Positions 938 to 64,000 of a stretch of 64,000 nt of DNA are shown here, one piece after another (within the stretch, counting starts at the first letter, position 1; each line of letters starts with the position of its first letter). The DNA is from Enchytraeus crypticus (lineage: Eukaryota; Annelida; Clitellata; Enchytraeida; Enchytraeidae). The stretch spans positions 1,476,001-1,540,000 of the forward strand of contig CAJHZI010000463.1 of the NCBI GenBank assembly GCA_905160935.1, written 5' to 3'. The notes under the pieces were generated by a model. That model ran no database searches and was not told where the DNA came from. It worked only from the letters and a program-made list of their open reading frames with translations. Both the position numbers and the translations under genes were made by a program.

Positions 938-3423
938 GTAGAACTTTCTAACTTAACCTTTACCTTTATTAGTAATACAAAGTGTCTGTTTTATTCATTT
1001 ATATTTAGTTTCAAACATTTTCTGTTTTTTTAAATTAGTAATACAATGTGTTGATTGTCTTTTGCAAACAATGCTAGTTTATCTAGCTGCCGAACGGTTA
1101 CGGTATCGTACTGCTGATCAATAGGTTTAAGATTCTAAGCCAGGGTACCCCGTCCAATGATATCTCTTCATATCGTTAAATAACAAATGATTTAAATTTT
1201 AATGTTTTTTGTGTTTTGACCTGTGCAATAATAAAATTGTGTTAAACTTAACTTGATTGTACTGGTTCAGGAAGTCGAGAGACTTGTTGATGTTGATTGA
1301 CTTGTTGCTTAGTATGTCAAAAATTTGTTTATCTTTAATATCACTCGTCCAAATTTTTTGCAAATAATATAATTTCTTATAAATTTCAAATATGAATACT
1401 GTTGTTAGCCTCTTATTATTTACTGTATTGTTGCAAAATGTGATTATTTGTTTAGTTTCTAGTTAAGTATGCTATATTTGTTATTAATTGTGGCATGAAA
1501 CAAATAAAAAAGGTATTAAAATCTTTCAATTATGCTTTGATTAATTTCTGAAAAGTCTTGAATAATTTTATTTTTGACGACAGGCGGCTTCACTACACTC
1601 AAATATTTTCGTTAAGCCATATAATTAAAATTAAAATGTGATTATTTTATAGTAATAGTCTCACGGTTTTAATTGTTTTGCTCAGATAATGGTTGACTGA
1701 TTAATGTATTTATTCTAAAAAAATATGTTTAATATGTTACTGCATGTGAAATTTAAATTTATAGACAATTACATTTTTTCTGTGCGTGTGTTTTCTTTTC
1801 TAAAAGTCATACTTTGGAATTTAACTTTCACTTTTTTAGTTTTTTTCTCAAAGCTCACTATAATATTTATTTTGAATGGAATACTAAAGATTACATGACT
1901 GATATTAAATGAATCTGTTTTCTGATTCGTTCACTTTTTCTTTTTCTGCAAGTGTTTAAATGCTTAACCGTTGAGTGTATGCCTATACAGTTTATTGTGT
2001 ATACTGTCTAATAGCATACTCATCTTCTTCAAGTGCCTTGCCTGTTCCAGGTCTGGGCGGTCATGGTCATGTTCCCCCTTATGTCTATGTCCATTGTTGC
2101 TGTGATCATTTCTGTTTCCGTTATCTACATCCATTTGCTTAGACTCTTAATGAACGTCATCCTATGTCCACCTTCACTTTGTTTGCCGTTTATTTTTTCT
2201 GTCACTATAGTATTTCAACGATTTTGTTCCAAATAGTGTGTCCGAAAAACTTCACCTGCTAGCATCTTATTCTATTAAATAGATAGTTACGACTAGTTGA
2301 CATACCTTGTCAAAATAACAATCTCTACAAACTAATTAACAAAGATTAATAGTGGTTATTAAAACCATGAGCAGAAACATTTATGAAAATCAAATTTCTA
2401 TTTTTAGCTTTGATTGATTGATTGATTTAAGATGGCGATGATATTCCTGCTGAACTATTGAAACATATGGAGGCTATTTTCTGTGCCAATGAGAAGGCAT
2501 CTGAAGATACAAGAAATAAATTGTTACACATATCCAGGTACAAACTTTCCTTTCTGGTCTTTCCGATATGACGAATTTTTAAAGAAACAAAAAACGTGGA
2601 GTAAAATAATAGAAATCTTTATAGGGTAATTTATTTTAAATATTGCTTTTCCTGTTGATTCGGGGTATGTGCCTTTGGCCTTATTTCTCATTTGACTTTC
2701 TCTACTTCGTATGTATTGATGACTAGCTGACTTAATATGTGAAATAAACAAAATATAAATATGCAAATTAATAAATAAATAAACATAATTCCGATTCTGG
2801 TTCACGCCTTCTATAATTTATTATAGATTTAATATACAAAAATCACCATGTTAGGAAATGCCAACTGTTTACTGGTTGTTGAATAAATTACACATGTGGA
2901 GGATTCTTAGTCTCAACGTTAATAGTCTATGACTCTATATTGAGTACAATGTATGTTCATGTCCACTTAATGCAAATAGCCTCGCTGTTTCAATAGGACT
3001 ATATTACAAATAACATTTTAGCCTCTATATAAGCCTCTACGTAATGATTCGCACGTCGCATATATAATGTTTAGCAGCATATTAAAACATGATTTTAGTA
3101 TTTTTAGTATGTATCATTCTTTTATGTTTATAAAAGTATTTATCATACTTAAAAGTTTCATTCTCAGTATGCATACTAGCACATTATGTGTTAGTATTTA
3201 TCATCCTTAAAGTTTCATTCTCAGTATGCATACTAGCACATTATGTGTTAGTATTTATCATCCTTAGAAGTTTCATTCTCAGTATGCATACTAGCACATT
3301 ATGTGTTAGTATTTATCATTCTTAGTATCTTTCATTCATTCAGTATGCATCATAATTCTTATGCTCATTTTTTACAGATTGAAGGATATGCCGCGACTGC
3401 AAGAATATCTGAAAATGAAATAA
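823..3423 (+). CDS. 3' end of an unidentified protein gene (last three exons)
   Basis: Three exons join in one frame: 823-937 (phase 0 to 1), 2432-2537 (phase 1 to 2) and 3378-3423 (phase 2 to stop TAA). Each has consensus sites: acceptors TTTAACAG, GATTTAAG and TTTTACAG, donors CAAG|GTAGAA and CCAG|GTACAA. The joined tail is about 88 residues, starts EMLQACIVILNYLNDPDLKA and ends LKDMPRLQEYLKMK. It looks fully helical and amphipathic, as in ARM/HEAT-repeat proteins, but I recognise no family. Upstream exons lie left of the window. The gene converges on the collagen gene. The first intron holds an antisense LINE fragment, the second a 58-bp tandem repeat. That the exons are real is well supported by the phase agreement; function is unknown. 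Confidence 0.72.
2020..2235 (-). mobile_element. LINE 3' fragment (same family as 16365-16910)
   Basis: Antisense match to the last about 210 bp of the element at 16.4-16.9 kb, including the shared ATGACCATGACCGCCCAG segment and the final TTGAAGAAG. It lies in an intron of the + strand gene. Confidence 0.65.
2432..2537 (+). CDS. unidentified + strand gene, exon n-1
   Basis: 106 nt; completes a split Asp codon (G|AT) and leaves AG for the next exon. Peptide begins DGDDIPAELLKHMEAIFC. Acceptor tract is a (GATT)n run followed by TAAG. Confidence 0.7.
3096..3350. repeat. 58-bp tandem repeat, about 4 copies
   Basis: Unit contains TCAGTATGCATACTAGCACA followed by TTATGTGTTAGTATTTATCA. It sits just before the terminal exon of the + strand gene. 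Confidence 0.8.
3378..3423 (+). CDS. unidentified + strand gene, terminal exon
   Basis: 46 nt to the stop TAA at 3421-3423. Acceptor is TTTTTTACAG. Phase 2 start completes AG|A (Arg). Encodes RLKDMPRLQEYLKMK then stop. Confidence 0.7.
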
Positions 3424-4195: not shown

Positions 4196-7100
4196 CTAGT
4201 AACACAGGGCATCATAATGCATTAGAATACATCGCAATACATCACAGGGCATCATAATACATCACAGGACATCACAATACATCACAGGACATCACAGTGC
4301 ATCACAGGACATCACAATACATCTCAGGACATCACAAGACATCACAGGACATCACAATGCATCACAAGACATCACAGGACACCACAATACGTCATAGGAC
4401 AGCGCAATATATTACAAAAGATCACAGGACATGCAAAATATTTTAAGATAAAGAATTGTGAAGATTTAGCATAGAAATTTATATATATTTATTTAGTCTA
4501 GTTTTATTAAATTTTTATATTTTAGTCTGTAATTGCTATATATATTATTTAAAATCTTTTGTAAAGATAATTTACTTTTTAAGTTTAGTTTAATATACTT
4601 TACAAAACATTCAAAGTGATTCTTTAATTCACTGATCTAAAAGAAATGTAAATGAGAAGAAATGTAAGTGTTATGTATGTTCTTAATACATAACACTTGT
4701 GTATTTTATTATTATTATTTATTTTCTGTATTTTATTATTATTATTTATTTTCTGTATTTTATTATTATTATTTATTTTATGTATTTTATTATTATTATT
4801 TATTTTATGTATTTTATTATTATTTATTTTATTATTATTATTTATTTTATGTATTTTATTATTATTATTTATTTTATGTATTTTATTATTATTTATTTTA
4901 TGTATTTTATTATTATTATTTATTTTATGTATTTTATTATTATTATTTATTTTATGTATTTTATTATTATTATTTATTTTATGTATTTTCTTTATGTGTT
5001 TAGTCATTGTATTAAGCGAAGTCGTACCCATTGGTCCGGTAGGTCCGGGAAGCCCTATTGGTCCAACAAGTCCTGGAGGTCCCTGTATACCTGGAACACC
5101 GGCCGAACCTTGTTCGCCTAAGATATATTATAAAAATATATAAACAAAGATATAGACCTGATGTTGACGTCAGTTCAATCATGCGTGTTTACTTTATTAT
5201 ATAACTGATGTCGTTGCTTTATATGGTAAAGTATATATACAACAAATGTAGCAGATATTAACAGAAATTAATAATAATAAAGATTTAACGTCCGTTTCCT
5301 CATCCAAGGATGATGTCAAATTATACGAATATCAATAATAAAGATTAATTTTTAAAATGTGAAAGTCGTTTAATTGTAATTCTCGCTAAAGTGTCCGGAC
5401 AAAGTGTGACATCCAGTTATATTCTGTCATAATGTTATGTTTTCACTGCTAGCCCATAAGAACAACATGTTGCTCATGATGCACTAGCCAGGATCAAAGA
5501 TCAAAGGTTAAAGGTTCGCAAGGTGACGATTTGAAGGACTGTAGTAGGGAGTTGAATGCCTTGAACAACAATGCCTAGAATTTACCATTTCTGCCGCAAT
5601 ATTTTCCACCCTCGTAATTATCGGTTGAGCATTAATGTCAATATTTAGTCATATAAAACAGTTTCACCTTTAAAGAGCAGTAAACCTGATGTTGACGTCA
5701 GTTTAATCTCTCGAAAGCAATATCAGTGACGTGCGAGTCCAGGATTTGAACCGCATACTGATCCGCCGTCGGATATATAACCGACTTCACCACCGGCTCT
5801 AGTGAAATATCGTTGGAGCAGTCCATTGCAAAGATTTTAGACATTATTCATGCCTACTAATTAGCTATGAGTAAAACCCCGGGTGTTGGAAGATTAAATT
5901 AAATGATTATAGGCCTATTAAGCTGCATCTTTGCACGCTGTCAAAAGACAACGACTACTAATAATCATTGACCGAGGAGGAAAGAGAAAATTAATAACAA
6001 AGCAAGGAAATGTTAACACTTGCGGTGTGTCGTTTGTGCAACCAAACGAACAAACAAAATCTCGTGTCTGTTACTTTAATACTAAATATAAACTTGTATA
6101 AAAGATTGCATGTTTTTTATAGTGATTGGTTGAATGTCTCAATAGCGCAATGGTTGGAAGTGAAGATAACGTCATGAGCTTTAAATGACAGACCCTGAGG
6201 TGAATTGAACCCTCGTGGGTTCGAATCCCAGCCGCGCTGATCTGAGAGTAAAATCTCGGACGTTCACTGGATTGGCTACACGGAAAATGGACAAATTTAA
6301 ATTGCCTAACGGTTTAAACATATGGCATTAAAAGTGATAAATATCGAAGTAGTTGATCATTTCACTATAATGTGTGTTATTATTATTAATGACTAACACC
6401 ACAAGACTCGACTCACCAGGGAGACCCTGGGGGCCAGGATTGCCTACTCGGCCAGGGTTACCCACGCCGGGTGGGCCTGGGGGCCCCCGCAACCCCTGCA
6501 CCAACTCATCCAGTCTTTCTGCAAATATTCGGTTAAAAGTTCTAATGTCCCAATCACATTAAAAATTACCATAGACATTTTTGCTTGTACATTAGAAATG
6601 TGTAGCGGCAGTTTCGTCAAATGTGAGCTCTATCTTAATGACCGACGTAATTTCCTAAAATGTTAACATCTTAAGCATTAAGTTTAAATGATATATTAAT
6701 TTCTATCTATAAGCTGTCTTAAATAATGTGAATGTTTGCTTTAACATGTTCTATGCATTCTCATGCGGAAGCAGAATAGTTTAAAACAAAATATTTTTAA
6801 GGAACAGTTTACATTACTTGTGCAAGATGAACCCGTTGTCTAAACGGAAAGACCCAGTTGAGGAGCTATTAGGCGTTAGGACTACAGATCAAGAGTCTAG
6901 AGATTCAAAATCAAGGCTCACTACCACTGATTTTTCTTTGCGGACTGTGATGCTAGACCATTCTTGAACCTTTTAGATATGTTGACTCTGAAGCAAACCG
7001 TTGGAACTAAATTCTTATTCGTCCAGGCTGTATTTAATAGTTTAATTAATAAATTACAGGTATTGCATTCCTCTAATACTCATGCGTTATAAATTATAAT

Positions 7101-29720: not shown

Positions 29721-32700
29721 AGATAGCAGCAAAAAATAATGCATCCAACCCGAGTTCCGTTAAGTCCAGGCGATCCAGGAGGACATGTGACGTCACACTT
29801 ATTCTTATTTCTCGTTCTCTTTCCGTTCGCAATAGGTTCATCGTATTCAACCTGATTCTGCAACAACCAGCCAGAAACGTTCAAATAGAGAGAATTTTAG
29901 ATACATAATTCTTGTAAAATTCGCATAGGTATCAGATTAGGAGTACTTGAACTTTGTTTAAAGCTCGTAAAGGTGCAGTACAATATAAACTATCTGAAAA
30001 TGTAATTCAGTAAATAAATAGAAATTAGGTTTCTAATAGAAATATTTTAACATTATTTTGGACAAAATAGCCCGTTTATTTTGTTGCAATAGCAATATTT
30101 GCATTCGTTGTTTTTAAAGAAATAGTGTGTTCGTGGTCCGTACGTCTGAAATTGAACAACAGTAAAATGCACGTGTCGTAAACGGGAACTACTTAAGAAA
30201 ATAGGGAGGCAATGGGAAACCATCTCAGAAACTATTAATCCCAAGCTGTAAGCTAAATTAAAATTCAAATAAGGTATAGTTTTTGTAAAGGGTTAACTTG
30301 ATCGGTGGAGTGCACCGTAAACTGTGAATAGGAATGCAGGTACATTGGACCTGAAATTTGGAAAAATCCCAGAGAGGGAGATAGGGACAGGAAGAGAGAT
30401 GCAAAATGTATTTAACATTATAATTCAACAATTGTTTTATAAAGTTAGTTACAATTTTTTAAACATTTAACTAGCACATTATACAATAATTTCAAATATT
30501 TTATAATAAATAAATTTATGAATAGACATGGCAGCAAGGTTAAACTATCTAAGGTTCTGGTTGAGCTCCCGTTTAAAAAGTAAATACGCATTATAGTGAA
30601 ATGATCAACTATATTGATATCTATCACTTTTTAATACCACATGTTTAAACCGTTATGCAATATAATTCCATTTTCCGTACAACTAGTCCAGCGAATGTCC
30701 GAGATTTTACTCTAAGATCAGCGCGGCTGGGATTCGAACCCACGAGGGTTCAATTCAACTCAGGATCTGTCATTTAAAACTTCATGACGTTACCCCTACG
30801 CATATTTATGCACGATATGGCACATCTCAGCGACGTCTTGAGAAGTAGTATGGTTATAAATGACGCATAGGAATATGCCATCGCCTGCAGGCATAATTTC
30901 ATACACGAGTCTACATGCCTGATTTCTTAGATTCAGATTTTTAATTCAGTTTTCTCTAAACACAAACAAGTAACATATAAATCCATTTCATTAATGAATT
31001 ATGAAATTCTTTTTAGATCTCTTTTATCCATTAAATTTATAATTTATAAATGAGATATATTCATAAGAAAACCTGAGTTGATGAAGCTGATTCCAGTCCT
31101 CGTGGAAGATTGAACTGATCTAGGGCTGACTTTTCAAGATTTTTGATAAACATGAAAAAATAAAAAATAATTATTTGATAGTAGGTCTAGGCATGTCTAG
31201 ACATTTTAAAGTGCAGGCTGTTTACCAGTTCTATAGCCTATATAATTGGCAGTAGGCCTACGTTTGTCCTATAAGTCAGAGATAGCGTTTTAATTTCAGT
31301 AGGACGGCTAGTAACTATTGTATATTCCCTGAGATGCGAAAAGCGATCCAAACAATAAATTTATATACTTAATGTTAGAACAACCATTTGTACAGGGCGT
31401 AAAGTCTAATCTGTTCAAGAAAAAATTATTTCTATGGGTTTATCTATCGTTCAACAATTTGGTTACTTAAGTTGCTTGCTCCGTAGACGACTTGTTGTGG
31501 GCTTCTTAATATGAAGCCACTAAATTAATGTATATGCTGTCAAGAGCCTACTATCAACTTTTCTCTTAATTATTACTAAAATAATTACTACTGTAATTTT
31601 TTTTATATTACTGTAAATTAAATTTATTTCCAAGAAATTTGATCAAAATTTAAACAAACTGTAAGAGCTTATTCTTATTTAAATTCAGAAAAGAATATAG
31701 CCAAATCCTAAAAAGGAAAAATGCAATTTATCTTTTTCATTTCTTCACGTTGCTGTCTTCTGTTGGAGCATGCAACTCACATGAATATTGCATTTAAATG
31801 CAGGCACTATTCACTCCTGCAACTCACCTGTGATAATTCTTCGCATTTATATTTTCTGGGTAACTCAGAGTCGCAGTGAAATAAAATCGTCTGCAAATCA
31901 GTCTGCGCAATACAAATAATACGTATTTTCTATTATAATGAACTTTATATTTTAACAAAATCAAAATCGAGCAAATTTTACGTAACTATGGTCCTAATCT
32001 AGACACATATTTATAAATAAAGGCTAAACTATCCGTATATATAAATGCTTGATGGGATAGATAAATGCTTAAAGAATTAATACTTGATGGATTAGTGATT
32101 AACGTGTTAATGCTTGATGGATTAATTATTTTTTCTCATTGTGGTTGACATCCCACCACAATTTCTCGCATCTCTCGCATCGTACAACGATGCTAAGCCT
32201 CAAAAAGGTCATGCAGCACTCCTGCATTACTAAATTTACTCAAGAAATTTTGATAAACAACGCTGAACCTGATTACCGCCCAATCGCCTCAAAACAATTA
32301 CAACAAGCGTCATTCATCTGAGGTGGTTATTCAGCGAATGGAAATGCAGAAATAAAAGACAATCATCTCCCGATCCGGAGGCAGGATAAAAATGATAAAC
32401 AAATTTATTATAGTCTAGACACCAGAGAATTTAAAGTAGCATATTATTGAGTCGTTGGAAATGTGGATATGGATAAGGATGAAGAAGATTAGCTGGGCTC
32501 AAAAAGATATAAATGAAGCAGTATTGAAGAGAATGTGTACAAATAAACGGTTGGTAAATGCTACAAGAAATAGGAAGAAGAATTAGATAATTGAGATTTG
32601 GAATGTTAGATGATTAACGATCAACTCGTATGTTGACATGAGGAGGAAAACGGAAGACAGAGAAGAGTAAGGGCGTTATATACCATGGACCTGCCAGTAG

Positions 32701-52265: not shown

Positions 52266-55200
52266 CTGTGCACAGCATTAGAATAATAATAAATAATAAC
52301 ACACATTATAGTGAAATGATCAACTACGTTGATATCTATCAGTTTTAATACCACATGTAAAATCCGTTAGGCAATTTTGTCCATTTTCCGTGTAACAAGT
52401 CCAGCGAATGTCCGCGATTTTACTCTCAGATCAGCGCGGCTGGGATTCGAACTCACAAGGGTTCAATTCACCTTGAGCAGGGTCTGTCATTTAAGACTTC
52501 ATGACGTTATTTATACCTCTAACTATTGCACTATTGAGACATTCATCCCCTGACTACATCTTATATGAGGTTAAACAAGAAGTGTAAGAGAAATTCTGGA
52601 TAGAGTGTTAAGTGAAATTCTGTTATGAGTAAAGAGTGAAAGTTATGCGCCAGCAAGAGTAGAAGTTACACGTAGGAAAGAGTGAAAGTTACACTCTTTC
52701 GACAGAGCGTCAGCGAAATGCTTAAAGTAACTAACGAATATAGGTTCCAAGGCAAATATATCTCTCGTAATCGTACCCCTGGGTCATTTATTTATACCCA
52801 CAATCCCAAACATCACCAGTTAATCTCATCAAAACGAAAAAGTCTTTATGAAAACTAAAATTAAGCTTTAATGCATGATCAAGAAATGAATTCAAAATAA
52901 CTTTATCTCATTCAGAATTTCATTAATTAACCTTCGCATTCTTTTAAATGCCCTTTGATCAGTGACTAACCATCATTGTTAACAACTACACCTAACAGAC
53001 TTTCTTTCTAGAGCCTTCCCCCCAACTTTACGTTTTACTTAGGAGAACAGAAGTTCCATCCAAACCCTCTGAATGTCATATTAGCGTAGGGGTAACGTCA
53101 TGAGGTTTTACGTGACAGATCCAGAGGTGAATTGAACCCTCGTGGGTTCGAATCCCGGCCGCGCTGATCTGAGAGTAAAATCTCGGACATACACTGGACT
53201 GGCTACAAGGAAAATGGAATAAATTGCCTAACGGTTTGGACATGTGGTATTAAAAAGTGATAGATATCAACATAGTTGATCATTTCACTATAATGCGTGC
53301 TTTTACTCTTTTTTTACTCTAAAATCTAGATGACACTGTTGCATCCACTGTCACAACTATTACTCTAAACACTTCCAAGCGCCCCTCACATGTTCTCACC
53401 GCCCCCTGGCTATATCGCCCACCCACAATTATTGACACAGATATACAATTTTCAATCATGAAAAGAATTTACACTTAAAGGCAGAGTACATACCACTGCA
53501 GGCGAGTTTCTTCATGTCCTTTCTCTTGTTAGCGAACCAGTTGGTTACAACCTGTACCGTTAATCTCTCACGTTCAGTCAGCGGGCGACCAACTGCGATG
53601 TCAACAAGATAACAAGTAGAATATACGAGTTCAGCATACATGAAGATACTTCAGTAAACATCAGTAAAATGATATGGAAGAATATTGAAAAAAATACATT
53701 AAATACTTATGAAATATTACTGTGCATTTATGTCTTAATTTAAATTTATTCTAGCCTGCTTGCAGCATATAAAGTCGCTGTAAGTCATTCATCGCTATAA
53801 TTAGTGTTTCCGATCCTATTGTATTGAACCACGCTCATTAAATCTAGAAGACAAAGGACACAACTTGCACAAACCTGATCTCGAGGTGGCAGCATTACAC
53901 TGCTCCACCATCTCTTCTCGTCGCTCCACGGATGGATAGGGATCCACGGAGAAGTAGTGCTCCAGCACTTCCAGGTGGTTTGATCTGAACACGAATCTCT
54001 CGCGACGCAGACAAGCCATATTTCCACCGTTCATGGAGGACATGATGCCATCCAGCACTGCTCTGTTAGCGGCATTAACGCCAGCTGCTACTGCTGCAGG
54101 CTGCTGCACAAAATCGAGCAGCTGCGTCTGTAGGTCACACAGCTGCTGCTGCTTCTGACTCGCTATAAGTTTCTTGAGAGAAGGTTGAGTGCCGCAGCCG
54201 TTAGAGGGCGCATGCTGAGCCGCAGCATTGGCTGCAGGACCTGCATCACAATGAGTCGTAGAATTATAACAATAAAGGTTTAACGTCTGTTTCCTCAGAC
54301 AAGGATGATGTCAGGGATGTCATACACAAGTTCATATGGGATAGGCATTGCGACATCTGCTGAGGTAGTTGTGATTTATTCCAAAACTTAATAAATACAA
54401 GAAAACAGCAGAAAAGACATACTACAACTAAAAATACTAAAACTATACTAGATATAATAGTACTAGAAAAAATAAAATTTTGACTTACTGTTCTCGCCAG
54501 AAGGCAATGTCAGGGACGTCTCGAGCAGAATATACATACATTATGTAGACAACTTTGTACAACACACCCACAGAGAACACACCCACAGTGAACACACCCA
54601 CAGAGAACACACCCACAGAGAACACACCCACAGTGAACACACCCACAGAGAACACACCCATAGTGAACACACCCATAGTGAACACACCCACAGAGAATAC
54701 ACCCACAGTGAACAAACCCACAGAGAACACACCCACAGAGAACACACCCACAGAGAACACACACATAAAGAACACACGCACAGAGAACACACCCACAGTG
54801 AACACACCCACAGAGAACCCACCCACAGAGAACACACCCACAGAGAACACACCCACAGAGAACACACCAACAGAGAACACACACATAAAGAACATATTCA
54901 AGGAGAAATAACACCCTAATGAACATTGACAATCATTAACCCATTGCGGTGCACTTGTAACCCGTAATATATGGATGGATCCAATTAGGCAGAAAGAGAG
55001 AAACTACAGTAACTTGAATTAAAAGCAGATGTGTACCGATTGGGGGCTGAATTGTTAGCATGATTGCTTGATAAGTAAGAGCCATTTATTCGGAACCTGA
55101 CTTAGCCTTCTCTGATAGTTTACTTGTCATAACCAGAAATTAAGCTTAGCTTAATGACATTCTAGATTTATTTAATATTGCAATTATTAACAAAATAAGA

Positions 55201-58200
55201 CAGGTTAATATGAACATCGTCAAATGTATGGACAGCAACACAGCCTTGGTACTATATGAAAAAATTGAACTGCAGTCAGCTAATAACTACTCTGCCCATC
55301 TAGCCATTAAAAATTTAAAACCATTAAATAATATTTGGTGCGACTGATATTGTTTTAGAGGTATATAGGTAATATAGTTTTGAATAAAACTGAAACTGTG
55401 TCATAACATAATCCACACTTTAAAACCAATATTATCTCTTAAAATTCCATTTTATCTTCTTACAATTTTTCTAACTCGAACCAGTTCAATAAAATTGGTA
55501 GCAACACAATTGATATTGAAGCATTACAAAATAATAACAATAATAATTAACTAAATAATAAATATTAATAATTAATATTAATTAATTTTCTAATGTAAGA
55601 ATAGTAGTACAAACCGATGGACTGTGGACTGTTTCTGAACGCTATATACCAGATCTTGATGGATCTACAGCAGCGCTCTGACATGCTCGTAAACTCACCC
55701 TTTAGATATCGACTCACGTATGGCTGACTGACCCCTATCAGAAAACAAAAAGAGTAAATTAGGTCAGATGAAAAGCCGCAAAAAAGAGCCGAGCTATAGT
55801 TCTTCTACTAAATTTGCAATTGTGGTTGAGCTTAAGAATTTAAAGCTAAGGCCAAGTTTAACGTCAGTTTCCAACTTGAATGGAATGTCAGTGACAGGGA
55901 GATAACTGGATTTGGATCCTGCACCTACTGATCAGCTGTTGAATAACTTGCCAACAAGCCATCGGCTCACCCCAATTTATTTTAATTTAGTTTAAATACT
56001 AAATTGCCGGCTATTAGCGGCAATTAGCGTGTTTTTATTAAGCACTTTGTATATAACAATGTAACAGACAACGTAAGGTACATATATAAATAGGAAGCAG
56101 CTGTCAAATAGCACAAGAGACACCTGAAGTCGTCGCTATATATAAGGTGATTTTTTTAAGTAAACAAAATTTTATAAAAGGTCTATAAGTAAGTTTATTA
56201 CAGCAGAGTTGTCTTAGAACAATCTTAAATATTATTATTGAGATCACATCAAAAATGAAACAGTACTTGAAAGGTTTGGACAAAGAAAATTAGATGAGAC
56301 AGGTTCTAAACGAAGGCTGAGGTTCTTGGGTCACTTATTGAGAATGTATGAAGATAGATATGCAAAGATTGCAATTAATTGGAAGCCAAACCAAGGAAAA
56401 AGGAAAAGAAGTAGACCTAGGATTACTAGAATCAGCACCATTAACAAAGATTGAGAAAATTGAACATTTCATGAAAAGAAGGGGTCAGTGAGCACTGAAA
56501 TGATTATAAGAAAGATTATAATTTGATAGTACCTGCAAGATATGCTATTTGTTGCTGCTTGATATTGTGCTGCGTCACAAATGATCTGATTTGTTCACAA
56601 CATTCTACTTCCCCGAGACTGTAATGAAACCATATTAATATTGTACAAAAGCAATTACAATAATGAGCTATCTATAATTAAGATAAAACAAAACAGTATC
56701 GCATAGCCTAAATGTGATGTCTTCTTCTAATACACTGATATATAAGATTCAATATATAAGACACAATACACATTCCAGATAACATCATAAATTGAGGACA
56801 CAGACTGAACTGTTTTAATTATTTAGATTATTAAATATATCATTACTAATACTGTAATTTTTAATTAACCTTAGGTTAAAATCCTATGGTTGGATAAAAA
56901 GACTTAAGAAAATGAAAGTACACTGTTAATATATTACTAAATATTAGAATTAAATAAAATATTACATACTCTAGAAACCGTCTAAGCTCATCAGAGTTTA
57001 TTTCTGCCTCCGTTAACTCAGTGCCACTGTTTATGAACCTCCTAACCAACCAATCGTCAACACAATCTCCATTGCCAACAACATTTGGGGAAGCCGAGTA
57101 TTCCGATTTCATTGCATATTGAGAATTTTGCTGAAATTGCTGCTTTTGCTGCTGCATCTGAAGAACATGCTGCAAAACCAGCTGTTCTTGTTGCTGCTTC
57201 TGCTGCTGAGCTTCTTTCTGCTCTTGTTGAAGCTTCTGCAATTGCTGAAGCTGTGCTATCTGCAGCTGCAGTGCTTGGACTTGCCGTTGCTGCTGCTGGT
57301 GTTGTTGACTTTGTTGTTGCTGCTGCAACTGCTGCCACTGCTGGGCCTGCACTATCTGCTTCACATACTGCTCTAGCTGAGTATCCTTATTATTAGCTGC
57401 TACAGCTGCTGCAGCTGCTGCTGATGTCAAACCGTTGCTGTTCCTCGCGTTGTCTCCAGCTGCAAATGAATCCTTTTGCTAAGACATAAAAAATAATAAA
57501 ATATTAATTACTACACTTACAGAGCAACATTTTATAAACAATAAGCTGCGTAGGCCAGGGAAGATTCAGGGTTAGAGCCTTTCTTCAGATGATATAAATA
57601 ACTAACAGAATAGAAAATTGCAATTTACTGTTTGATAAGATTAAATAAGTTGAAATAGGCAGGAATAGTAACTAGGATTAAAAAATAGAGCATGACATGA
57701 TAAATACTGACATGGATGTGTCTCAAAACAAAATGAAAAATAATGAAAAAAGTCACTTATTTTGAAAGCAAAAAGTATAGAAGTAAAGAATTGGAACTGT
57801 GGAAGCTGTAGTTCATCGCTAAACCCTTCTTTCTAAGCAAAATCCAGATTATGCCACTTTCTAAAATACAGTGAATTTAAAATATAAAAAAAAAATTTCT
57901 CCCAAATTAGAAGCTGTGTGAGCAAGGATTTATAAGGGTAGTATGGGTTTTCTAAACATAGGAGGAAATGTAAAATTCAATCAAAAACTGCGCCAATAGG
58001 TCTAACTTTTCAGGAATCGCAAAAAGTAAGTTTCGAGGTTTTCTACAAAAACCTAACAGCCCAAACAGTCAGATATTTAGGTCAAATTTCTTGAGAATTT
58101 GATAAATTTAAATCTGATAATTTTACATTACCTTTAGATAAATACTACAAATTATTATTTAATCTATTACTCAAGTCTCAGTCAAGCCAGTAGTGCAGTG

Positions 58201-60439: not shown

Positions 60440-61615
60440 TGACATAGTCAGATCGGGGAAATTGATGCATTTAAAACCAAGTTTACCAGTAATTGGAATA
60501 ACTGAAAAATTGGTAATACATTATAATTCATATAAAGTTGCTTAACATTATGAAACTTATGTTTATTCTGTAAAGTTCTTAGAATACGGTTACATGCAAC
60601 ATGTAAGGGTTGAAGCAACTGTTTGGTTGTATTGGCATAAACTTCAATGCCATATTGTGTCCTTGATTTCATATACCAATGAAAGGTATAAATTTTTACG
60701 ACAATTCACAGGAATAAAATCTCTACGATTGTATCACATACTATTAAAATTATTAATTGTACAGATTAATGATTTAATATGATCACCAAAAGTCAAATTT
60801 TCATCTAATGTTAAGCCTAACAATTTGGCAACATATGTTCTATTAATGCAGTTATTATCAAGGGATACAGTTAAATTGTTAGTTTGAATAAGAGCTTCAT
60901 CGTCTTTAGCGGGGTAGAACAATACATATGAAGACTTAGAGCAATTTACAGTTAGCTTGTTACTTATAAACCATTTACTTATTTCAGAGCAAGTTAGATT
61001 CGCAGAGATAAACAATTCATCAATAGACTTATGTTTAACAAACAAATTAGAATCATCAGCATACAGTTTTATGGACCCAAATGAACAGGCATTATGAATA
61101 TCATTCATATAGATTATAAAAAGTAAAGGTCCTAAAATCGAACCTTGAGGAACACCGATACCAACAGATAACACACTAGAAATGCTGTCACCAATTAAGG
61201 TGTGTTGTTTTCTCCGAGATAAATAAGAGTTAAACCAATCATAGGCAGTACCACGTATTCCATAAAAATTTAATTTGTGAAGCAGAATGTTATGATCAAC
61301 AGTATCAAAGGCTTTTGAGAAATCTAAAAATATACCAAGTGTCTTGTTTTTATGCTTATGTTCAGTAGATAAAAAAATTTACACTAGAGAGAAGAACATC
61401 AGTGGTAGAATGGCCGGATCTAAAACCAAATTGATTTTCATTAAGGATTTCGTACTTATTTAGAAATGTAGTAATGCGTTTATGCATAATTTTCTCGAAT
61501 ATTTTATTTAAATTATTAAGGAGGGAAATTGGTCTATAATTTTCCACTAAGTCATGTTTACCCTTTTTATAGACAGGAATGACCTTGGCTAAACAAAATA
61601 TAGTGAAACCTTAGT
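60440..61615 (-). mobile_element. 5'-truncated LINE reverse transcriptase (Jockey/CR1-like)
   Basis: In order: LAKVIPVYKKGKHDLVENYR, PISLL...FEKIMHKR, QFGFRSGHSTTDVL, then after a frame change at a 7-T run DFSKAFDTVDHNILLHKLNF, GVPQGSILGPLLFIIYMNDI, and the YADD catalytic box. Further on: SKSSYVLFYP, KLLGLTLDENLTFGDHIK, and after stops SRTQYGIEVYANTTKQLLQP. The RT palm is nearly intact, so the insertion is fairly young, but frame changes and stops inactivate it. The 5' part (endonuclease) is absent. Confidence 0.85.
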
Positions 61616-62485
61616 TACACAAAATATAATGTTTGGTATTCGATGTTGGCGAAAATTTAATAGAAATCTAGGTTGCTTATAACCGTGAAACGAACTTCGC
61701 ATTTATCGGACATTCTGGTTCACCTGGTATTCTTTATTCTATGCCTGAGCAGAGATGGGCAGTAATTTGGCCAATGTAGTTGAACTATGAAATTTAAATT
61801 ACAAATTGCAATTGTAATTCCTAATTCAATTACAATTTTAACTTTGATGTAATTTGTAATTTAATTATATTGGGTTCTCCCGCTGGGTGGCAGTTTTTGC
61901 CCCACTACGGATGCCAATTGTTGGGTTCTCCAATCCTCTCTCCGTTATAGGAGTTCAGGAATGGAGTCGTGGGTTCGACTTTTCTAACTCTTCATGCTTT
62001 GGCGGTATTAATCTTGAGGATGCAAGGATCTCTTGCTCATATAGCCAGTTGGAGGCTAAATCAATAGACTGGAGCTGCTATGAACAGAACTCATGCTTAT
62101 TCGTTCAATGTATGATAATTTATAGTATTTGTGTGTTATTTGCAATTATCTGTATAAGTTCTAACTAAATTAGAATATTGACACAAAAGCTAGTGATTTA
62201 TTATTTTAAACGATTTATTATTAACAAAGAAACACGATAGCAATATAACGAGATTAAAACATTAAATATAAAGATAGAATAGAATATTAAACGAATACTA
62301 CGAAACAATTAATAAAATGCTAAAAATAGGCGATATATATAAAGTTAGTCTACTTAAAATCAGTTAGCCAAATGTTTGTATTTGCAATTAAAATACGAGA
62401 TAGAAATGGGGAAGCGAGTTATTAGCTTCAAGGCACTCCTCGCTTAAATGATTTCATACTTTCCCTCTTTTCTTTTTTATTATCT

Positions 62486-63302
62486 GACTGTTAACACGTG
62501 AGGTGTTATTTTTCAGTCGTTTAGCTGAATCTATGAAAAAGACGCGTAACTAGAATAGGCAACTAGTAAATTGCGCTTTTCATAGATTTTAGGACCTGCA
62601 ATCGCCTGACTGAGATCTAGAAGGATAACGCTTATCTAGAGTGGACAACTAGAAAATTAGCGTTCTTCGTAGAACTTCAGTATTATTCTCTTCTGTCTTC
62701 TTTTCTTTCTTTCTTCTGACTGTTAACACAAGAGGTGTTATTTTACAGTCGTTTAGCTGAATCTAAGGCAAAGACGCTTAACTAGACTCAGGCACTAGTA
62801 AATCGCGCTCCGTAGAATTCAGGATTGTAGTCGATTAGCTGAAATCTATGAAAGCAACACCTTTCTAGATTAGGCACTAGAAAATTAGTGTTCTTCGTAG
62901 AATTTCGCTATTTCCTGATTCTGTCTTCCTCTTCAATTTTCTATCTTCAATCTTCAGTCTTCTATTTTCTGTCTTCAATCTTCAGTCTTCAATTTTCTGT
63001 CTTCTGTCTTCACTGCCAACACAAATTGTTGTAAATGCAGCTATTCACCTCAATTGACAAGGAAACGCTTTATCTAGATTCAACTCTAGTAATCGGCGTT
63101 TCTTGTACAATCAAGGATTTATACGTTCAATGAATTGAGATATTGAAATGTTGTCGTGATTAACCGACTTATAGAGGATTAGACGACAATTCCACACAAT
63201 ATCTGCAATCCCGTGAGGCACAATCGTTCTAATATAGATTTCGTATTTTTCGTGCTAACTATCCGACCTATAGAAGGTGCATAGTAGCAGTACTTCCTAC
63301 GA
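62486..63302. repeat. array of related hairpins (three short, seven long)
   Basis: Long hairpins at 62528-62588, 62612-62677, 62759-62820, 62841-62907, 63054-63110, 63151-63189 and 63239-63302. Short ones at 62486-62518, 62717-62750 and 63013-63040. The first five long ones keep CTAG on both sides of the loop. Details in findings. Confidence 0.7.
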
Positions 63303-64000
63303 ATGCAGTCAGAAATTCAGAAGCTTGTATGAAATCTATTAGTATATGAGTTTGTCGCAATAATTCATTAAGAGTTAAATTTAGACAAGTTCGCCTAGTA
63401 ATTCCTTACATGCCAGAGTTCAGGAGTGAACTAAAATTCTATGGCCTGTCCTCTGGTAATATAGTATTGATCGAGGCCATGCTCAACAGCCAATCAGAAT
63501 CAGGCTCTTCATAAGCATTTCTCCACCCAGCTCCACGAGTGGTTGCGTTGCATGCATGTATCTTATGCATATAATTTTTATTATTTCTTTACATAATCTA
63601 CTGTTTTTACTGAATGTCATGTATAATTTAATTTAGCATAAGTTTTACATGAATACACCAATAAGCAATGATCATATCTCAATATATGAAAGTTAAACTT
63701 CTAATTACATGTTAATTTGCATTTCCTCATTACTTAATTTAATATTTTCGTTTCATAACCTTGCAATTCTAACACAAAATAAATTCTAATGAACATACGC
63801 TGAAATGAATACACATTTCGATGCAAAAGATCAGTTTAAACATCTAAATACAAACATGAGTGCAAATAAAATTAATTCCAAACATATGGGTGAGAAATAA
63901 AATATGTAACACATTTAGTTGCGCTACATTACAGTGAAACGTCAAATCATCTTTTATTCCCACCTTACTTTGAGATTAAATTACAAAATATATATCAGTT

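Follow-up and report, generated by a model that had tools for sequence, protein, structure and literature searches.

The window, by which we mean the whole 64,000-nucleotide stretch of Enchytraeus crypticus DNA analysed here, carries about ten related hairpins in a row near its right-hand end, and the question raised by this locus is what such an array is. An earlier note took preserved pairing with changing sequence as a sign of selection on RNA or cruciform structure and proposed a microRNA or small-RNA cluster or a structured satellite. Our analysis points to another identity: with a probability of roughly 0.8 for identity and position together, the array is an internal segment of a 2.4-kb long terminal repeat (LTR) of a Ty3/gypsy retrotransposon, present here as one minus-strand copy. 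Taken alone, the identity of the hairpin-holding unit as an LTR is close to certain, being established by its sharp ends, a duplicated target site, copies dispersed through the genome, and full-length relatives that have a primer-binding site (PBS), polypurine tract, and pol. Ty3 LTRs in general are already well known; for the terms used, the open-licence literature yielded no paper that mentions a hairpin array in such an LTR in its title or the opening of its abstract.

Composition of the hairpin array

Folding placed about ten hairpins at 62486-63303, in agreement with the ten or so noted earlier at 62486..63302, and all features of the array were assigned to the minus strand. Fold z-scores were calculated against 200 dinucleotide shuffles, A1 and A2 being folded without their outermost base pair. 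The array contains A1 (62486..62518; GACTG/CAGTC and TAACAC/GTGTTA; z -1.6), B1 (62525..62593; z -5.5; covariance model 82.9 bits), and B2 (62611..62680; z -4.0; 74.4 bits), followed by A2 (62718..62750; z -2.7), B3 (62757..62823; z -1.3; 78.5 bits), and B4 (62840..62908; AACAC/GTGTT; z -3.6; 75.1 bits), with A1-B1-B2 and A2-B3-B4 forming a tandem duplication at a spacing of 228-232 bp. Repeat analysis identified a 14/28-bp tandem repeat, purine-rich on the sense strand, between the hairpin groups at 62930..63013. Beyond it lie A3 (63013..63040; CTGC/GCAG and CAACA/TGTTG; z -1.5), B5 (63049..63116; z -6.4; also matched by the covariance model), a sixth hairpin with the sense-strand loop TCTATAAGTCGG (63138..63212; z -1.9, or -2.4 with other ends), and a seventh with the sense-strand loop TCTATAGGTCGG (63238..63303; z -3.6).

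Most of the earlier description of these units stood. The three type A copies, the third with its deviating arms, and the CTAG that borders the loop on each side in the first five B hairpins were all recovered. The AACGC/GCGTT arm ascribed to those five was present in B2 and B5, with AACAC/GTGTT in B4, whereas the arms of B1 and B3 resemble GACGC/GCGCT. The sixth and seventh hairpins do have a common loop, CCGACYTATAGA, but the covariance model built from the five B hairpins matched neither; in the window, this model gave five sense-strand matches and four weak opposite-strand matches to the same hairpins. Folding of the units, which had been put forward as a check, was clearly better than in shuffles for five of the ten (z -3.6 to -6.4), whereas A1-A3, B3, and the sixth hairpin exceeded them weakly or not at all. 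The mean fold energy of the array region was -13.0 compared with -11.0 for the window, and bulk folding does not mark out the array, because the region lies outside the 15 strongest stretches. Within the window, no tRNA was found, and nothing reached the Rfam gathering scores.

A Ty3/gypsy LTR with dispersed copies and full-length relatives

The array is embedded in a longer unit, whose start lies at 61868/61919 and whose other end falls outside the window. Sequence comparison with other copies placed the LTR at 61919..64000 on the minus strand, which is its sense strand, and past the window end: similarity to the window sets in abruptly at 61919, some copies extending it by about another 50 bp, and comparison of the copies with one another revealed another abrupt end some 320 bp past position 64000; it is there that the sense 5' end of the window's LTR is judged to lie. 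The LTR is about 2.4 kb long in the window type and 2.1-2.4 kb overall, and the five copies checked held no stop-to-stop frame of more than 93 aa in the LTR unit. The sense 5' end reads TATAAGAA in 15 of 18 copies, TGTAAGAA in two, and a variant in one, so that the terminus is mostly TATAAG (TGTAAG in 2/18) rather than TG, as in the short TG...CA inverted terminal repeats of Ty3/gypsy LTRs. The sense 3' end is GAGAACCCAACA in most copies, with a CCCAACA terminus, and CTCAATA in L031. Two AATAAA signals were read on the sense (minus) strand at 62197..62219, followed by a GT-rich stretch at 62180-62190.

A published account of animal Metaviridae describes LTRs with a YNYAACA 3' end, AATAAA followed by a GT-rich stretch, and a TGTTRNR 5' end (PMC3601003). 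The CCCAACA terminus fits YNYAACA, and the AATAAA and GT-rich layout agrees as well. Other features in common with animal Ty3/gypsy elements are the tRNA-Lys PBS, the polypurine tract, the reverse transcriptase-RNase H-integrase order, and the 4-5 bp target duplication. The present elements differ from animal Ty3/gypsy elements in their mostly TATAAG 5' end, which is not the TGTTRNR of that account, in the CTCAATA end of the L031 LTR, and in the about ten imperfect palindromes held within a 2.1-2.4 kb LTR. A nonautonomous DNA transposon, entertained while only the sharp ends were known, was set aside because inverted repetition between these ends stops after a few bases and the relatives carry a PBS, a polypurine tract, and pol.

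A DNA search of the genome (524 Mb, 802 contigs) with 62480-63310 as the query revealed at least 39 other places at 91-98% identity, plus a 42-bp fragment; this count is a lower bound, 40 of 305 candidates having been scored. Exact matches to a 19-nt half of B5 occurred at 180 genome places (control, 0), and exact matches to the LTR tail at 158 (control, 1). Among 100 hairpin-half matches listed of the 180, an exact tail lay on the same strand 873-1494 bp downstream in 54 and was absent in 46, and in none did it lie upstream or on the opposite strand. The 54 distances cluster (21 at 873-877, 11 at 907-910, and 17 or 18 within 1129-1166 bp), which indicates that array length varies stepwise. 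Such dispersed LTR copies speak against a satellite. The earlier note had taken many decaying copies elsewhere in the genome, as of an ordinary repeat, to speak against its own reading, and this is largely what was found, except that the copies are structured.

Twenty copies were fetched with their flanks, two of them without a right end, leaving 18 for the target-duplication count. A perfect 4-bp duplication flanked 11 of the 18, compared with 11 of 306 mismatched flank pairs, and was absent from seven; this signal was reached by none of 20,000 permutations and by none of 300 in which length and offset were re-chosen each time. Following the rule in these copies, ATTA at 61864..61867 is the candidate 4-bp target duplication in the window, where it stands beside an extra 51-bp unit. 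LTR comparison resolved this unit (61868..61918, minus strand) into a degenerate PBS copy (61899-61916) and a repeat of the LTR tail. It lengthens the LTR at its 3' end, occurs zero, one, or two times among the LTRs fetched, and concerns the window, L011-L014, L016, and L021; it looks as if U5 had grown by capture of a PBS, with subsequent priming at the next one. A different oddity was observed at L037 (C454), in which a 39-bp 'LTR' at 3231-3269 comprises 13 bp of LTR head plus LTR tail, with PBS and leader directly after.

Among 100 tail matches listed of the 158, at least eight same-strand pairs and no opposite-strand pair lay less than 20 kb apart. Seven of the eight had the hairpin half in both LTRs, with tail-to-tail distances of 6.9-7.0 or 11.1 kb. 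Two candidates were rejected: the L021 element (C118), which is the eighth pair, was not accepted as full-length, as L030 contains no LTR and L042 has just a 37-bp fragment of a second tail, and the C696 pair (L017 and L029), 13.6 kb apart, was taken as a duplication rather than an LTR pair because both members have an identical 33-bp outer flank. In C188, the LTRs showed 99.3% (1358 bp) and 99.8% (809 bp) identity over the two aligned pieces, the 3' LTR is preceded by the polypurine tract gagagaagggggggtgg, and the outer flanks carry the 5-bp repeat TGTCT; the tract of C331 has one extra G. After the L031 LTR comes the PBS TGGCGCCCAATGTGGGGC, the complement of the 15 terminal gene-coded bases of the host tRNA-Lys(CTT) plus CCA, the latter being joined to the tRNA 3' end after transcription and not gene-coded. 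The genome contains this tRNA 3' sequence 25 times, and the three loci checked contain three distinct genes for tRNA-Lys(CTT). The exact tail-PBS junction has 20 genome occurrences, and a genome search with tail plus leader returned many loci with both.

Pol domains were read in L046 and L045, which are pieces of two 11.1-kb copies, in the order reverse transcriptase (RVT_1, E 2e-32), RNase H (E 2e-35), and integrase (zinc domain, E 5e-15; core, E 3e-13), and the best solved relatives of the reverse transcriptase piece include Ty3 (E 2e-38). Protease gave sub-threshold matches only. Gag-like frames, alike by eye, lie sense-downstream of the LTR in L021 and L017, that of L017 matching Ty3_capsid at E 1e-4, under the Pfam cut-off. 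Two size classes were observed, one of about 6.95 kb (C188, C205, C331, and C354) and one of 11.1 kb tail-to-tail (C127, C158, and C201). Of the short class, a 2.8-kb piece of the 7-kb C188 was read. It contains an open frame of 447 aa, which matches protease below threshold, and otherwise lacks any sense frame of 80 aa; as pol is missing from this piece, C188 suggests that the short class may be a nonautonomous partner mobilised by the long class.

Variation and possible role of the array

The array probably lies within U3, because the AATAAA signals are downstream of it. A TATA-like stretch at 62335-62345 has no preserved counterpart in L031, so the array could also lie in R and thus in the 5' leader RNA. 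Five B hairpins were counted in L034 and 21 other LTRs, including that of the window, and three in L031-L033, L035, and L036, among which C188 and C205 have both LTRs; B hairpins persist in both subfamilies. Comparison of L013 with L034 in 100-bp blocks gave 62% identity for the sixth hairpin, 72% for A3 and the purine tract, and 87-100% for all others, with the B1-B4 blocks at 90-98%, like the rest of the LTR. The least conserved parts of the LTR are therefore these two blocks only and not the array as a whole, and their fast change may mean that there is no function there. In C188 (82690-90554), B5 and the tail are 876 bp apart in one LTR and 910 bp in the other, and this 34-bp difference is a recent alteration within or close to the array.

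As to what the array does, we tentatively favour promoter-proximal palindromic DNA. It would be a promoter-proximal tandem block of imperfect palindromes in which A-B-B units, spaced at about 232 bp, were duplicated in tandem or lost. If it acts at all, it would probably do so as DNA, with CTAG and AACGC/GCGTT as putative paired half-sites and with host factors that bind them driving LTR transcription; the arm matching between types would stem either from paired sites or from palindrome-correcting template switches in reverse transcription. Tandem and palindromic enhancer blocks occur in the LTR U3 regions of Tnt1 of plants and other elements. The array resembles such blocks in having copy-number-variable repeats upstream of the promoter, but differs in that each B repeat is a hairpin of about 70 bp.

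A close rival, possible if somewhat doubtful, is that the array has no role, slippage and template switching in reverse transcription having duplicated units and matched arms that are tolerated in U3. The length difference within one element, C188, is what this explanation would lead one to expect, and the two least conserved blocks between L013 and L034 both fall inside the array, although conservation of the B1-B4 blocks matches that of the LTR elsewhere and both subfamilies keep B hairpins. Within-class variation was analysed in the five B classes with 22 LTRs each. Stems varied more than unpaired columns did in B2, B4, and B5 and less in B1 and B3, so that they are not consistently the more conserved part, which again fits the lack of a role. 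The 116 within-class departures comprised 21 G-U, 30 A-C, and 54 other mismatches, nine single changes to Watson-Crick, and two compensated doubles. This nearly uncompensated loss indicates that integrated copies decay without visible constraint, but the two compensated doubles also leave the ongoing correction that template switching would bring hardly visible.

Comparison between the five B types revealed the older matching of arms. Watson-Crick pairing was 0.747 for own arms compared with 0.621 for cross-pairing, ranking first of 120 arm assignments, although a B2/B4 partner swap was nearly as good (0.746). The preserved pairing with changing sequence that the earlier note described is thus found between types, where own arms pair best, but not within types, where copies are nearly uncompensated (2/116). 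Watson-Crick plus G-U pairing across B arms (0.828) did not clearly exceed Watson-Crick plus A-C (0.817), and the lack of a clear G-U excess fits a DNA-level or mutational cause, the no-role explanation included. The older arm matching between hairpin types shows no clear strand signature, and the proposal of selection on the RNA strand is hence unsupported.

It is accordingly less likely than a DNA role, and on the whole unlikely, that the array acts as RNA in the retrotransposon transcript, in the 3' UTR or, if it lies in R, in the 5' leader, for example in export, stability, or packaging. The five hairpins that fold much better than shuffles and the best pairing of own arms would suit such a role, as would the seventh hairpin, predicted in 7/7 aligned LTRs, three of which are alike here. 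Cell-based covariation also exceeded all 500 shuffles (82.7% vs 74.3% paired, and 227 vs 105 double-changed cells) and all slid versions, but pairs with a double change (12 vs 12.2) and pair types (34 vs 32.7) were no better than in shuffles, and G-U cells (188) stood against 165 A-C cells even though the structure had been chosen on the sense strand. In three LTRs, the array had more structure than the remaining LTR sequence; however, the antisense strand was nearly as structured as the sense strand in two of them, the window and L034 (one antisense mean was not computable), whereas in L031 31% of sense and 17% of antisense windows had z below -2. Counterparts of the sixth hairpin were strong in L031 and L022 (z -4.9 and -4.4) but weak in L013 and L034 (z -1.8 and -1.2).

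The Pol III B-box has the consensus GGTTCRANNCC, and no site with up to one mismatch to it was found at 61868-64000. This counts against a retroelement-encoded microRNA cassette of the kind found in the bovine foamy virus U3, a highly improbable reading that is also less likely than the DNA role. The LTR position and the 67-75-nt stem-loops do resemble the foamy virus cassette as described (PMC7693620), but the type A hairpins measure just 28-33 nt, stem mutations are almost uncompensated, and Rfam gave no match at gathering scores. The foamy virus (BFV and SFV) U3 cassettes are, moreover, Pol III-driven and expressed (PMC7693620), whereas no Pol III B-box was found here. By analogy, a Ty3/gypsy LTR with an expressed modular cassette of about ten hairpins acting in trans or on its own RNA would be an invertebrate counterpart of the foamy U3, which we consider quite improbable. 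A host microRNA or small-RNA cluster confined to the window locus, as first proposed, has hairpin shape alone in its favour and is virtually discounted by the dispersal of the array (180 places vs control 0) in copies with LTR ends, target duplications, and pol-bearing relatives.

This case shows that an array with the looks of a structured-RNA cluster may turn out to be a mutable block of palindromes within an LTR, a question that genome-wide copies settle fast. If the block is active, LTRs with three and with five B hairpins would form a natural series on how U3 palindromes tune retrotransposon expression, and this series would include LTRs from one element with both LTRs more than 99% identical.

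Other features of the window

A reverse transcriptase fragment at 60737-61378 (minus strand; RVT_1, E 1e-21) lies beside the LTR but outside its end. It was considered as the internal part of the element and rejected on account of this position and of its motifs, which are of the non-LTR type by eye. A sub-threshold collagen match was observed on the minus strand of the window. GGTTCRANNCC-like sites numbered 27 in the window compared with 10.8 expected (for example at 5742-6228, 30730-30757, and 53128-53155), and this excess perhaps reflects tRNA-derived SINEs. A homeodomain exon was identified at 53819-54310 on the minus strand (PF00046, E 2e-6); by eye, this exon and 55568-55804 together resemble an HMBOX1/HNF1-type gene.
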